This document shows, one piece after another, positions 11,816 through 15,788 of a stretch of 64,000 nucleotides of DNA; the stretch's first letter is position 1, and each line of letters opens with the position of its first letter. The notes under the pieces are model-generated. The model worked only from the letters and a program-made list of their open reading frames with translations, was not told where the DNA came from and searched no databases. A program made the position numbers and the translations under genes. Source of the stretch: Phreatobacter stygius (GTDB lineage Bacteria; Pseudomonadota; Alphaproteobacteria; Rhizobiales; Phreatobacteraceae). The DNA is taken from the NCBI RefSeq assembly GCF_005144885.1, contig NZ_CP039690.1, forward strand, positions 1,364,001-1,428,000, read 5' to 3'.

Positions 11816-12439
11816 ATGGCCCGTCCCCGCGCCGCCGATTACGACGACAAACGCGCCCATATCCTGCACGCATCGGCCGAGCTGTTCTCGCGCCAAGGCT
11901 ATGACCGGACCTCGATCAACGACATCGCGGGTGCGTGCGGCGTATCCAAGGCCTTGATCTATCACTATTATCCGAACAAGGAGCAATTGCTCGTCGACAT
12001 CATCCGGCGCCACCTGGCCAACCTTCTGGAGACGGTCGGGCAAGCTGCCCGCTCGGCGCCGCCGGGCGACGAGCGGCTGCGTGCCATCATTGGTGCCTTG
12101 CTCGAGGCCTATCGCGACGCCGATACCCTGCACAAGATCCAGGTCAGCGAGCTGTCGCGGCTGCCGCCGGCCCATCAGGACGAGCTGAAGGCGGTCGAGC
12201 GCGCTCTGGTCGTGCTGTTCTCCGAGGCGCTGGCCCAGGCGGTGCCACCGCTCGCCGGGCGGAGCGCACTGCTGAAACCCGTGACCATGTCGCTCTTCGG
12301 CATGCTCAACTGGCATTACATGTGGTTCCGGCCCGATGGCCCGATGACCCGCGAGGCCTATGCCGACCTCGTCACCCAGCTGATCCTGGCCGGCGCCCGG
12401 ACGGTCGCCGAGCGCGGCCAGCTGGCCGCCGCCGAGTGA
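11816..12439 (+). CDS. TetR-family regulator of the phenylacetate operon (PaaR-like)
   Basis: A 207-residue TetR-type repressor. The N-terminal helix-turn-helix spans about residues 12-60 (HASAELFSRQGYDRTSINDIA, then GVSKALIYHYYPNKEQLL), and a helical ligand-binding domain follows. It is the last gene of paaG-paaI-paaK-tetR. PaaR-type TetR regulators elsewhere respond to phenylacetyl-CoA. By position it probably represses this operon and the divergent transporter through the 9112-9133 palindrome (inference). A PaaX gene is also present in the window, so the two paa blocks may have separate regulators. A hairpin of GGTTGCGG/CCGCAACC (12514-12545) follows the gene and may end transcription. Confidence 0.82.
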   Translation: MARPRAADYDDKRAHILHASAELFSRQGYDRTSINDIAGACGVSKALIYHYYPNKEQLLVDIIRRHLANLLETVGQAARSAPPGDERLRAIIGALLEAYRDADTLHKIQVSELSRLPPAHQDELKAVERALVVLFSEALAQAVPPLAGRSALLKPVTMSLFGMLNWHYMWFRPDGPMTREAYADLVTQLILAGARTVAERGQLAAAE

Positions 12440-12579
12440 GCCGCTCAGGGCATCCTGCCCGTTGCTTCGGCCAGGTGACCACCCAAGCCGGCATTGCTCG
12501 GCTCGGCCCGCAGGGTTGCGGGGCGCGCGGCCATCCGCCGCAACCGTGAGGCGAGCCATATCGCCCGCGGGGAATCCGG

Positions 12580-12585
12580 GCTAGC
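12580..12585. repeat. Left copy of 6-bp target site duplication (GCTAGC)
   Basis: GCTAGC directly abuts the left end (TGTTT) of the IS element, and the same hexamer abuts the right end at 13603-13608. It fits NCTAGN, the known target and duplication of IS481-type elements. Confidence 0.85.
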
Positions 12586-13602
12586 TGTTTGATCCCGGGC
12601 TTTGATGGTGCAATCTCGATGCAGGAATCGAGGGACGCGCTATGGGCCAGGTTCTCCACGGGAGCGCCACGACGACTGAGGCGGTCCGTCGAGCGATACA
12701 ACATAGTCAAGAGAGCCTGAGGGCTCTGTCTAAGCGCTACGGGATTAACCAGAAGACGGTCGCGAAGTGGAAGAAGCGGACCTCGGTGACCGATGTGCCG
12801 ACCGGGCCGAAGAACCCGACTTCGACAGTGCTGACGATTGAGGAAGAGGCCGTGATCGTCGCCTTCCGGAAGCATACTTTGCTGCCGCTCGACGACTGCC
12901 TCTATGCGCTACAGCCGACGATCCCGACGCTGACGCGGTCATCCCTGCACCGCTGCCTGCAGCGTCACGGGATCAGCCGCCTGCCCGAGGTCGAAGGCGA
13001 GAAGCCGGCGAAGACGAAGTTCAAATCCTATCCGATCGGCTTCTTCCACATCGATATCGCCGAGGTGCAGACCGCTGAGGGCAAGCTGTACCTCTATGTC
13101 GCCATCGATCGCACGAGCAAATTCGCCGTCGTACAGATCGTCAGGAAGACGGGGCGGACCTCCGCGTCAGCCTTCCTCTCGGCCTTGATCGAGGCCGTCC
13201 CCTACAAGATCCATACCGTTCTCACCGACAACGGCATCCAGTTCACCTTCCCGCCACGGTATGCCGATGGTCCGACGGCGCGCTACGTGACGCACATGTT
13301 CGGCATGCGCTGCCAGGAGAACGGCATCGAGCACCGCCTCACCAAGGTGAAGCACCCTTGGACGAACGGCCAGGTCGAGCGCATGAACCGCACCATCAAA
13401 GAAGCCACCGTCAAGCGTTACCACTACGACAGCCACCGGCAGTTCGAAGCGCATCTCGCCGACTTCGTCAGCGCCTACAATTTCGGGCGGAGGCTGAAGA
13501 CCCTCAAGGGCCTCACACCCTACGAATTCATCTGCAAACTCTGGACAACAGAGCCTCAACGATTCAGGCTCGATCCACTCCATCAAATGCCGGGACTAAA
13601 CA
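12586..13602 (+). mobile_element. Intact IS481-family insertion sequence (1017 bp)
   Basis: The termini are inverted repeats: the left end 12586-12608 begins TGTTTGATCCCGGG, and the right end 13580-13602 read inward begins TGTTTAGTCCCGGC; 19 of 23 positions match. Flanking GCTAGC duplications (12580-12585, 13603-13608) mark a clean insertion. Inside is one full transposase gene. The element sits between the paa tetR gene and a desaturase gene, and interrupts no recognisable coding sequence. Intact ends, an intact gene and a perfect duplication suggest a recent insertion. Confidence 0.92.
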
Positions 13603-13607
13603 GCTAG
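12642..13607 (+). CDS. IS481-family transposase
   Basis: A 321-residue DDE transposase. The N-terminal helix-turn-helix (about residues 12-45) includes LRALSKRYGINQKTVAKWKK. The catalytic core has FFHIDIAEV (first Asp), VLTDNGIQF (second Asp) and WTNGQVERMNRTIKEATV (Glu), an intact triad. The reading frame is undamaged. Its last codons run through the right inverted repeat, and the TAG stop (13605-13607) lies in the duplicated target GCTAGC rather than in the element. AGGGA precedes the ATG. Probably active, though this is not shown. Confidence 0.92.
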   Translation: MGQVLHGSATTTEAVRRAIQHSQESLRALSKRYGINQKTVAKWKKRTSVTDVPTGPKNPTSTVLTIEEEAVIVAFRKHTLLPLDDCLYALQPTIPTLTRSSLHRCLQRHGISRLPEVEGEKPAKTKFKSYPIGFFHIDIAEVQTAEGKLYLYVAIDRTSKFAVVQIVRKTGRTSASAFLSALIEAVPYKIHTVLTDNGIQFTFPPRYADGPTARYVTHMFGMRCQENGIEHRLTKVKHPWTNGQVERMNRTIKEATVKRYHYDSHRQFEAHLADFVSAYNFGRRLKTLKGLTPYEFICKLWTTEPQRFRLDPLHQMPGLNS

Positions 13608-13608
13608 C
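13603..13608. repeat. Right copy of 6-bp target site duplication (GCTAGC)
   Basis: Identical to 12580-12585 and directly adjacent to the right inverted repeat. Its TAG is the in-frame stop of the transposase gene. Confidence 0.85.
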
Positions 13609-13664
13609 CTGCTCGGACTGACAGATGATCGGGTCGGGAGCGGACACCGGCTCCGCAGCAAAGA

Positions 13665-13691
13665 CGGATTAGCCGCCCATGCGGCAATCCG
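13665..13691 (+). other. Stable hairpin immediately upstream of the desaturase start
   Basis: CGGATT-A-GCCGC, loop CCAT, GCGGC-AATCCG: an 11-bp stem with one bulged A. It ends 10 bases before the desaturase ATG, beside the GGGG ribosome-binding element (13693-13696). It could limit translation initiation or be a left-over terminator stem; no T-run follows. Confidence 0.5.
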
Positions 13692-13701
13692 CGGGGCAAG
13701 C

Positions 13702-14709
13702 ATGCACGGCACGACGCTGACGACCGGCAAACCGAAACAGTCTGGCTTCTATCATTCGATCTCCGCGGAACCCCACGCCAGCCGCACCAAGGCGATCCTG
13801 AAGGCTCATCCGGAAATCCGGGCGCTGATCGGCCGCAATCCCTGGACCGCCGCGGTCATGGTCAGCCATGTCGCGGCGCAGATTCTCGTTGCCATCGGCT
13901 TTGGCCATCTAGGCCTCGACTGGTGGTGGGCGGCGCTCGGCGTGGGCTGGCTGTTCGGCGCCTTCATGAACCACAACCTATTCATCGTCATTCACGAGGC
14001 GACCCACAATCTGGTGTTGCGCTCGCGCAACGCCAACAAGCTGATCGCCATCATCGCGGACCTGCCCAATTGCTTGCCCACGGCAATGAATTTTCGCGCC
14101 TTCCACCTTCAGCACCATGCCTTCCAGGGCGACATGGAGCGCGATGCCGACCTGCCCTCCGCGTGGGAGGCCCGTCTGGTCGGTCATTCGGTCTTCGGCA
14201 AGGTACTTTGGCTGTTCCTGTTTCCGCTGTTCCAGGGCGCCCACGCGCTGCGCGTGTCGAGGCTTGCGCCGCGCGACGGCTGGGCGCTTGCCAATATGGC
14301 CGCGACCGTGGTCTTCGTCGTCACCATGGGCTGGTTCGCCGGCGCCAATGCGCTGGTCTATCTCATCGCCTCATTCTGGTTCGCCATTGGCCTGCATCCG
14401 CTGGGCGGCCGCTGGATCCAGGAACATTACACCCTCGATCCCGAACAGGAGACCGGCAGCTATTATGGTGGCCTGAACCGGGTCTCGATGAATATCGGCT
14501 ATCACAACGAACACCACGACTTTCCGTCGGTGCCCTGGAACCGGCTGCCCGAGATCACCCGCATCGCGCCGGAATTCTACCTGACCCTGGTCAGCCACCA
14601 GTCCTGGACGCGGCTGCTCTGGGAGTTTTTTACCGACCCACGCTATTCGCTGCATTCGCGCGTGACCCGAGATCCGAGCCCGGGCCGCGGCGGCAGCCCT
14701 CAGGCATAG
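13702..14709 (+). CDS. Fatty acid desaturase resembling sphingolipid (dihydroceramide) delta-4 desaturase
   Basis: A 335-residue membrane desaturase with four hydrophobic stretches. It has the three histidine boxes that bind the di-iron centre: HEATH (about residue 98), HLQHH (about 135) and HNEHH (about 270). Residues SYYGGLNRVSMNIGYHNEHH, then DFPSVPWNRLPEI, are very like the C-terminal part of eukaryotic DES/DEGS enzymes, which insert the 4,5-trans double bond in dihydroceramide. The length matches (about 320-335), but the N-terminal DES lipid motif is not evident. It would act at the inner membrane. The gene lies between the IS and paaE, and its last 10 bases overlap the paaE 3' end on the other strand. 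No sphingolipid synthesis genes are in the window, so the substrate is inferred by homology. Confidence 0.78.
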   Translation: MHGTTLTTGKPKQSGFYHSISAEPHASRTKAILKAHPEIRALIGRNPWTAAVMVSHVAAQILVAIGFGHLGLDWWWAALGVGWLFGAFMNHNLFIVIHEATHNLVLRSRNANKLIAIIADLPNCLPTAMNFRAFHLQHHAFQGDMERDADLPSAWEARLVGHSVFGKVLWLFLFPLFQGAHALRVSRLAPRDGWALANMAATVVFVVTMGWFAGANALVYLIASFWFAIGLHPLGGRWIQEHYTLDPEQETGSYYGGLNRVSMNIGYHNEHHDFPSVPWNRLPEITRIAPEFYLTLVSHQSWTRLLWEFFTDPRYSLHSRVTRDPSPGRGGSPQA

Positions 14710-15788
14710 TCGAAATCGACGCTGACGGCTGACGTGCCGGATGTCGCCCGGCTCTGGCAGGTGAGCACGAAACCCGCTTCGATTTCCCAGGGTTCCAGCG
14801 AGAAGTTCTGGTCCATCGCCACCGCGCCTTCGACCAGCTTGGCGCGGCAGGTGCAGCACATGCCGCCCTTGCAGGAGTAAGGCAGGTCGAGCCCATGGCG
14901 GATCGCCGCCTCGACCACCGTCTCGGTCGGATCCATGGCGATGCTGTGCAATGCACCGTCGAGCCGGATCGACAGGGGCAGGCCGTTGGAAAGATCGGGC
15001 TTGCGCACCACTGTCGGGGCCTGCCGGCTGCCCGCGGTGGCGAACAGTTCGGAATGGATATGGTCATGCGCGATGCCGAGCGCTTCCAGCGTCTCGCGCG
15101 CCTCCTGGATCATCGCCTGCGGCCCGCACAGGAAGGCCTGATCGACGGTGCCGCCGTGCAATCCGTGCAGCACGAAAGTCCGGATCTTGGCGGCATCGAT
15201 CCGGCCATGGCTCACCGGGAAGTCGGAGGCCTCGCGGGACAGCACATGGTGCACCGAGAAGCGGCCGAGGAAGCTGTCCTTCAGGTCTTCCAGCGCGGTC
15301 TTGAAGATGATCGATGCGGCGCTGCGATTGCCGTAGATCAGCACGAGGCGGCTCGCCGGTTCGCGCGTCAGCACGGTGCGGATGATCGACATGACCGGCG
15401 TGATGCCCGAACCGCAGGCGATCGCCAGATAGACCCGCGGCTCCAGGGGATCGAGCGGCGTGGTGAACCGGCCCATCGGGGTCATCACCTCGATCGGGTC
15501 GCCGACCCTCAGCATCTCGTTGGCGAAGGTCGAGAAGCGGCCGCCGTCGACCCGCTTCACCGCCACGCGCAGATCGTCGTCGTCGATGCCGGTGCAGATC
15601 GAATAAGACCGGCGCAACTCCTCGCCCTCGATGGCCGTCTTCAGCGTCAGATATTGGCCGTGCTCGAAATGATAAGCCGGCTTCAGGTCGTCGGGCACGG
15701 CGAAGGCGATCGACACCGTGTCCTGGGTCTCGCGCCGGATATCGCTGACCACAAGGCGATGGAAATGGGGGGCATGGGCAGGGGTCAT
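14700..15788 (-). CDS. paaE: Phenylacetyl-CoA epoxidase reductase subunit PaaE
   Basis: A 362-residue flavin/iron-sulfur reductase that passes electrons from NADPH to the PaaABC oxygenase. An FAD-binding ferredoxin-reductase module occupies about residues 10-240, with RRSYSIC for flavin and ACGSGITPVMSI for nucleotide. A C-terminal plant-type 2Fe-2S domain has YSCKGGMCCTCRAKLVEG and a distal Cys in LTCQSR. The length matches E. coli PaaE. It begins 11 bases after the paaD stop and is the last gene of paaABCDE. Confidence 0.93.
   Translation of the reverse strand: MTPAHAPHFHRLVVSDIRRETQDTVSIAFAVPDDLKPAYHFEHGQYLTLKTAIEGEELRRSYSICTGIDDDDLRVAVKRVDGGRFSTFANEMLRVGDPIEVMTPMGRFTTPLDPLEPRVYLAIACGSGITPVMSIIRTVLTREPASRLVLIYGNRSAASIIFKTALEDLKDSFLGRFSVHHVLSREASDFPVSHGRIDAAKIRTFVLHGLHGGTVDQAFLCGPQAMIQEARETLEALGIAHDHIHSELFATAGSRQAPTVVRKPDLSNGLPLSIRLDGALHSIAMDPTETVVEAAIRHGLDLPYSCKGGMCCTCRAKLVEGAVAMDQNFSLEPWEIEAGFVLTCQSRATSGTSAVSVDFDYA

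Follow-up and report, generated by a model that had tools for sequence, protein, structure and literature searches.

A gene in the alphaproteobacterium Phreatobacter stygius raises the question of whether bacteria possess a dihydroceramide delta-4 desaturase. Specifically, a frame at positions 13702–14709 of a 64,000-nucleotide stretch of the genome (here called the window) encodes a protein that a first-pass annotation had described as a bacterial homolog of sphingolipid delta-4 desaturase. Our analysis upholds the homology: the protein carries a Lipid_DES domain over the family cut-off and takes its place in the DES clade of a phylogenetic tree. Judged by its sequence and those of its relatives, the enzyme very likely acts on a sphingolipid, and its main activity is probably that of a bacterial dihydroceramide (sphingoid-base) delta-4 desaturase.

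The notion is that a serine palmitoyltransferase (SPT), fed by a dedicated acyl carrier protein (ACP), would produce 3-ketosphinganine, which a KdsR-like short-chain dehydrogenase/reductase (SDR) would reduce. A bacterial ceramide synthase would N-acylate the reduced base, and the integral-membrane di-iron desaturase would remove hydrogens at C4–C5 to give a sphingosine-type (d:1) ceramide. Should the KdsR-like SDR act as the reductase, desaturation could follow reduction, as in eukaryotes. We infer the activities of the host pathway genes, the substrate, the regiochemistry, the order of the steps, the cellular side on which they occur, and the expression of the host copy. Passages of PMC11087976 locate SPT and ceramide synthase in the Caulobacter cytoplasm and the reductase in the periplasm.

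The desaturase and its family

The open reading frame runs on the plus strand from ATG to stop and specifies 335 amino acids. It is not a chance frame, because a genome collection offered 590 candidate stretches, 574 of which encode a relative (E ≤ 1e-3). The best 80 of the 574 loci were kept; grouped by record title, they comprise 29 from Alphaproteobacteria, 4 from Verrucomicrobiota, and 47 from Bacteroidota, Ignavibacteriota, or KSB1. The features of the gene are as follows.

13702–14709, plus strand: DES/DEGS family protein (predicted sphingolipid delta-4 desaturase), 335 amino acids; based on PF00487, PF08557, the tree, and an AlphaFold2 model
13741–13845 (genome 1377741–1377845), plus strand: Lipid_DES N-terminal domain; profile search of the genome, 51.6 bits
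13993–14007, plus strand: His box 1, HEATH, residues 98–102; histidines invariant in 33/33 rows
14104–14118, plus strand: His box 2, HLQHH, residues 135–139; histidines invariant in 33/33 rows
14503–14535, plus strand: His box 3 with the DES signature, HNEHHDFPSVP, residues 268–278; HNEHH invariant in 33/33 rows

The DES-type segment and the three His boxes read in the first pass are thus present, starting at residues 98, 135, and 268, and the protein combines the boxes of membrane desaturases with the HNEHHDFP motif. Across the 33 rows of the desaturase alignment (A2), positions 98, 102, 135, 138, 139, 232, 242, 268, 271, and 272 are always histidine, and the N–E pair within HNEHH is equally constant. 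Searched against Pfam, the protein scores 98.9 bits with FA_desaturase (PF00487) and, over residues 14–48, 47.6 bits with Lipid_DES (PF08557), whose cut-off is 23; this score makes it a member of the family. The host, a member of the Hyphomicrobiales, has a genome of one contig of 7,354,671 bases, in which the window desaturase is the sole PF08557 match at E ≤ 0.001.

Other members of the superfamily, namely DesA, DesB, CrtW, and CrtR, are more distant. Five NCBIfam models match the window protein at 16.9–37.7 bits, against cut-offs of 350–500, and the DesA and DesB equivalog cut-offs of 500 are not reached (24.5 and 19.1 bits). An AlphaFold2 model built from 33 sequences has a mean predicted local distance difference test score (pLDDT) of 89.8 and a predicted template modeling score (pTM) of 0.88. 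A sequence search returned no solved structure, giving one chance match (E = 1). Compared by Foldseek with the PDB, the model has two matches below E 0.001. Each is a chain of an FtsHi motor complex, and we take these chains to be fatty acid desaturases, although the output does not name them so. Next come AlkB (E 0.028, template modeling [TM] score 0.49) and human SCD (E 0.15, TM 0.34). A viral structure library yields five matches below E 0.001, of which four are named as giant-virus desaturases and one is named for a cytochrome b5 domain. These fold matches in the PDB and the viral library back superfamily membership only.

Phylogeny was the check that could have returned the protein to the ordinary fatty acid desaturases, and it does the opposite. 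Of 110 sequences, 2 with fewer than 250 amino acids were dropped, and in the maximum-likelihood tree of the remaining 108 a DES clade (support 95/97) unites 89 rows: the 80 loci, seven congener copies, the window protein, and human DEGS1, the sole eukaryotic entry, present as an unverified sequence. The 19 rows left over, which are lower-scoring desaturase matches from the host's order, lie outside. The window protein is the sister of the Phreatobacter copies (99/97). DEGS1 is placed among Bacteroidota on a branch of 2.16, a position that the tool rates as unsure. The window protein is 35% identical to this unverified DEGS1 sequence over 309 amino acids (E 2e-62) and shares with eukaryotic DEGS1 and DEGS2 the domain order, the three His boxes, and HNEHHDFP. 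It differs from them in having a bacterial host and other upstream N-acylation enzymes, and in being known here from its sequence.

Sphingolipid-type genes in the host and beside the gene in relatives

If the desaturase modifies a sphingolipid, its host should possess the genes to make one. The search for SPT genes that the first pass had called for finds genes resembling those for SPT and ceramide synthase in the host genome, at about 3.92–3.94 Mb, outside the window.

L087:12665–19527 and L088:417–4614 (about 3.925–3.937 Mb): host cluster, with the SPT-like gene, the YghO homolog, and PgpA among its members
L088:2894–4114: YghO homolog (own2894), 406 amino acids, 34.7% identical over 377 amino acids to YghO of Escherichia coli BL21, E 7e-66

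The cluster comprises an SPT-like alpha-oxoamine synthase (AOS), a KdsR-like SDR, a second FA_desaturase, MaoC, a ketoacyl synthase (KS), a 92-amino-acid protein, DUF4833, two LptF_LptG-family proteins, the YghO homolog, and PgpA. Searched with TIGR01825, the genome shows three AOS genes that match strongly and a fourth, weak match. The first strong gene is clearly a 5-aminolevulinate synthase; the second is BioF/Kbl-like, under all cut-offs. For the third (L087:13611–14915, about 3.9256 Mb), the best NCBIfam model is SPT, and we call it SPT-like because it stays below the NCBIfam SPT equivalog cut-offs (scores below). Against solved structures, the ten highest-scoring chains are all SPTs (eight at 327–342 bits, two at 230), and the best non-SPT chain reaches 199; the first eight are presumably Sphingomonas-type enzymes. 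The enzyme is 41% identical to the SPT of E. coli BL21, a tested enzyme according to passages of PMC9386255. In that source's Figure 9, yghO is the N-acyltransferase (aca) gene, and the host gene at L088:2894–4114 is homologous to it over its full length. Another YghO-like match in the host genome (G000:C1:193837–194910, 146.8 bits) is weaker.

The remaining parts of the pathway are recognized less directly. KdsR, a 3-ketosphinganine-reductase-like family, is the best model for the SDR, which lies next to the SPT-like gene, at 266 bits, under its cut-off of 400. The 92-amino-acid protein has no Pfam match; we call it ACP-like because it is 43–46% identical to small proteins of eight Beijerinckiaceae clusters, of which that of locus L010 has a sub-threshold PP-binding match. 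At the level of homologs, then, substrate supply is represented in the host genome by SPT-like, ACP-like, and YghO-like genes. The KS and MaoC may form a dedicated system that builds the acyl chain of the sphingoid base, where Caulobacter uses the AasR route.

Set beside the known bacterial ceramide route (SPT, AcpR, AasR, CerR/Epi, and bCerS/Aca in Caulobacter crescentus and E. coli BL21), the host cluster is alike in its SPT-like, YghO (Aca/bCerS), and ACP-like genes. It differs in having a KdsR-like SDR, a KS, and MaoC; the desaturation step would be an addition. No convincing CerR was found, the best matches to E. coli Epi being 27% identical (E 7e-14) in the host and 28% (E 3e-19) in the genus. 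The LptF/LptG-family proteins of the cluster have counterparts in both systems: lptG and lptF adjoin spt in E. coli BL21, and passages of PMC11324152 place LptF2/LptG2 in the region in Caulobacter.

The SPT-like AOS (77–96% identical in the 11 congeners) and the YghO homolog both occur in 12/12 genomes of the genus, where they lie on the same contig 6.4 to 8.1 kb apart; the host's own YghO sequence is one row of that query. Ten host cluster genes used as queries against two congeners recovered 10/10 in G003 and 9/10 in G008, and gene order is largely kept. The one gene absent from the G008 stretch is the second FA_desaturase (L087:15150–16358, minus strand), which sits beside the SPT-like gene in the host and in G003. 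It lacks Lipid_DES, the window desaturase being the genome's sole PF08557 match. It might modify the ceramide acyl chain.

A closer tie between the desaturase and sphingolipid-type genes appears in relatives. We scanned up to 8 kb on each side of the desaturase, often less because a contig ended sooner, using host, E. coli, and L060 sequences as queries and thresholds above 90 bits for AOS and above 60 for YghO. An AOS, a YghO homolog, or both lie near the desaturase at 22 of the 29 alphaproteobacterial loci (AOS at 21, YghO homolog at 15) and an AOS at 4/4 verrucomicrobial loci, two of which also have the YghO homolog. At seven alphaproteobacterial loci, the AOS frame ends 12–21 bases 5' of the desaturase match; at 14, the YghO homolog is directly 5' of the desaturase (17–279 bases) and is itself preceded by the AOS, except at L024, where the contig begins. 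L009 carries both genes 5–7 kb from the desaturase. The seven unlinked loci are five of Phreatobacter type, L018, whose contig begins 576 bases 5' of the desaturase match, and L080, whose contig begins at the match. Among the matches listed, the linked AOS proteins of Alphaproteobacteria and Verrucomicrobiota are 30–37% identical to the host SPT-like enzyme. When 2 of the 25 were compared with the PDB, the best chain was an SPT (219 versus 195 bits and 229 versus 219 bits for the best non-SPT). The YghO homologs of L010 and L060 have no family model over threshold. Together, the DES clade, the SPT-like and ceramide synthase-like genes of the host, and the operon-like order in these relatives favor the predicted sphingolipid pathway.

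Two cluster types deserve description in their own right. Eight Beijerinckiaceae loci continue with a family 2 glycosyltransferase (GT2), MaoC, a KS, and an ACP-like gene, the last three homologous to those of the host cluster. L010:5457–14086 contains the AOS, YghO homolog, desaturase, GT2, SDR, MaoC, KS, and ACP-like gene, and L022, L039, L060, L062, and L064 are similar; such a cluster could be a glycosylated ceramide locus. In six loci from uncultured Alphaproteobacteria (L001, L003, L007, L011, L013, and L014), DUF4833, two LptF/LptG-like genes, the AOS, and the desaturase stand in a row, followed by family 4 glycosyltransferase genes (Pfam, for L001). DUF4833 and the LptF/LptG-like genes recur in the host cluster.

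Co-occurrence across genomes has largely been set aside as proof, given its high base rate and poor independence; because it adds little, the case rests on physical linkage and family membership. A YghO-like gene is present in 50/50 desaturase-carrier genomes (weakest E 4.7e-35; 50 of the 80 were available, and 7 of the 50 supplied rows of the YghO query). Among 347 genomes of the order, PF08557 occurs at E ≤ 0.001 in 16, with 11 clear (29.5–51.6 bits) and 5 borderline (21.9–24.1 bits) cases, and a YghO-like gene in 11/11 clear, 1/5 borderline, and 65/331 other genomes; in many of these genomes, part of the first-look candidates were scored. Four of the borderline genomes (G233, G259, G280, and G393; family f41, genus g89 of the order) lack a YghO-like match, and their 21.9–24.1-bit proteins are possibly another desaturase type. 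NF047600, an SPT model, has some match in 46 of 47 Bacteroidota-type carrier genomes and none in 1. It passes its cut-off in 11, and its best match reaches at least 474 bits in 32; weaker matches can be other AOS enzymes. PF08557 is absent from 14 named control genomes, including that of the sphingolipid maker Caulobacter.

Contrary evidence and rival explanations

Several results weigh against a dihydroceramide desaturase. The host gene adjoins an insertion sequence (IS) element and is separated from the sphingolipid genes by about 2.5 Mb. The host SPT-like enzyme misses the SPT cut-offs (NF047599, 458 of 500 bits; NF047603, 368.6 of 670; NF047600, 282.9 of 640), and E. coli AcpR, AasR, Epi, LptF, and LptG have no blastp match within the host cluster. 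Neither can the linked AOS of relatives be certified as SPT: a scan of 6 of the 25 gives bioF as the top-scoring NCBIfam model (334–354 bits), with no cut-off passed. An AOS or YghO homolog was found near the desaturase at 0/47 loci from Bacteroidota, Ignavibacteriota, and KSB1; the operon-like order was seen in Alphaproteobacteria and Verrucomicrobiota. Two families account for all 11 clear PF08557 cases of the order, whose independence is poor because 9 of the 11 belong to one genus in which 12/12 genomes have the YghO-like gene. Among 198 genomes from the phylum of Chitinophaga costaii, 22 have PF08557, and the YghO-like gene accompanies it in 22/22 versus 168/176 of the others; a base rate of 190/198 makes this co-occurrence uninformative. 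Finally, a sigma-70 scan of 12400–14900 shows no promoter-like site, a null that says little because 0.4 sites were expected by chance and a single promoter type was covered.

The main rival, and an improbable one, is a sphingolipid C4-hydroxylase, or an enzyme bifunctional like DEGS2, that would yield phytoceramide instead of, or besides, ceramide. Passages of PMC11324152 report that the DesA-family protein CC_0202 hydroxylates the amide-linked acyl chain of Caulobacter sphingolipids, so a member of the desaturase/hydroxylase families is on record as modifying such lipids. CC_0202 differs from the window desaturase, beside which it is set here by description, in that it acts on the acyl chain; our guess is that the second FA_desaturase of the host cluster is its nearer counterpart. 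The HNEHHDFP region of the window protein matches that of the unverified DEGS1 sequence, which speaks for desaturation. The argument is weak, because no tested residue rule separates desaturase from hydroxylase.

Somewhat less probable still is that the host copy is silent or stranded, having been acquired from a lineage in which it works but lying unused here. Such a history would be compatible with delta-4 desaturation by the family, and it draws its appeal from the surroundings of the gene.

12577–13611 (ends approximate), plus strand: IS481-family element with imperfect terminal inverted repeats; transposase at 12642–13607

The element, whose transposase scores 277 bits with NF033577 (cut-off 224) and whose best terminal repeat pair matches at 13/14, lies between tetR and the desaturase and ends about 90 bp 5' of the desaturase start codon. 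It is not part of the enzyme and bears on the arrival of the gene. Comparison within the genus also suggests an unusual history. The desaturase is present in 8 of the 11 congeners; in G001 it is split between two contigs (L096 and L111), one piece with an in-frame stop, through either an assembly break or decay. In four congener genomes it is identical to desaturases of metagenome-assembled genomes named Phreatobacter, in line with the genus of the host. The host protein is 57–61% identical to seven congener copies, which are 78–98% identical among themselves, whereas the host SPT-like gene is 77–80% identical to those of ten of the 11 congeners. Two groups of congeners stand apart at 79% by the SPT-like gene (9 of the 12 SPT-like sequences were extracted for this comparison), and their desaturases are 78–79% identical. 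G003, the nearest relative by the SPT-like gene (96%), has no desaturase match. The simplest reading is that the host desaturase is a separate acquisition, or a fast-evolving copy that has been relocated. Against a silent copy, the frame is intact, all ligand histidines are retained, the model is confident, and GC content at third codon positions is 0.818, in line with the 0.788–0.885 of neighboring genes.

We regard as similarly unlikely, and slightly the least favored of the three, an action on some other lipid, such as the acyl chains of phospholipids or a product of the clustered AOS that resembles a sphingoid. This would suit the 47 loci outside Alphaproteobacteria and Verrucomicrobiota that lack linkage, the failure of NCBIfam to assign the scanned members of the linked AOS subfamily to SPT, and the presence of an RND-type efflux gene, identified by eye, 1–7 kb from the desaturase at the five Phreatobacter-type loci and in two further congener stretches. 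It fits poorly with the tree, which sets the window protein apart from the other desaturases included; with the 14 alphaproteobacterial loci at which a YghO homolog is directly 5' of the desaturase; and with the YghO-like gene in every carrier genome available, near-universal as that gene is in the Bacteroidota set.

The first pass had placed the gene inside a phenylacetate region. Physically this holds, as it lies between paaK/tetR and paaE, paaD, paaC, and paaA, but it forms a unit of its own, tail-to-tail with paaE with a short overlap (13702–14709 versus 14700–15788). As functional context, the placement looks incidental: the paa genes are probably accidental neighbors, and a tie to phenylacetate catabolism is unlikely given the tail-to-tail arrangement, the IS481 element upstream, and the efflux gene by the congener copies. 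Cargo of a plasmid or phage was rejected, since tblastn of the desaturase against a plasmid collection and a pattern search of viral contigs with the single desaturase query, which would reveal close relatives only, gave no match.

Bacterial ceramides and the reach of the family

The bacterial ceramide pathway, as described in passages of PMC11087976, consists of SPT, ceramide synthase, and reductase. A 2020 chemotaxonomic survey holds, in the part available (PMC7179689), that within Alphaproteobacteria sphingolipids are apparently restricted to Sphingomonadales; Caulobacter also makes them (PMC11324152, in part). In the Black Sea, bacterial sphingolipids vary in their unsaturation (PMC11334938, in passages that do not contain the word desaturase), and an enzyme for this unsaturation is therefore wanted. 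The family to which the window protein belongs is already known, and Pfam recognizes this bacterial member. Among the papers listed by our search of the open-licence PMC literature, with subscription papers and preprints mostly outside its reach, none described a dihydroceramide delta-4 desaturase from bacteria, nor a delta-4 ceramide desaturase clustered with SPT and ceramide synthase genes. Likewise, the available passages of PMC11334938, PMC11765627, PMC11087976, PMC11324152, PMC12134224, PMC6460317, and PMC12255454 mention no such enzyme.

A delta-4 desaturase accompanied by pathway genes in the Hyphomicrobiales would extend both the current picture of the pathway and the taxonomic range of sphingolipids. 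Named strains with the linked genes, namely Methylocapsa acidiphila B2, Methylocapsa aurea KYG, and Beijerinckia sp. L45, make the claim directly testable. We entertain, as a tentative and rather doubtful idea, that bacteria of several phyla carry the full route to delta-4-unsaturated ceramides, clustered in Beijerinckiaceae and Verrucomicrobiota and scattered in Phreatobacter, with eukaryotic DEGS as a late branch within; the nesting of DEGS1 in the bacterial family rests on its single unverified, long-branched row. In animals, the double bond of ceramide alters signaling and membrane behavior. Some bacteria may make unsaturated ceramides like those of animals, and, if eukaryotic DEGS does lie inside the bacterial family, animal ceramide would owe its defining double bond to bacteria.
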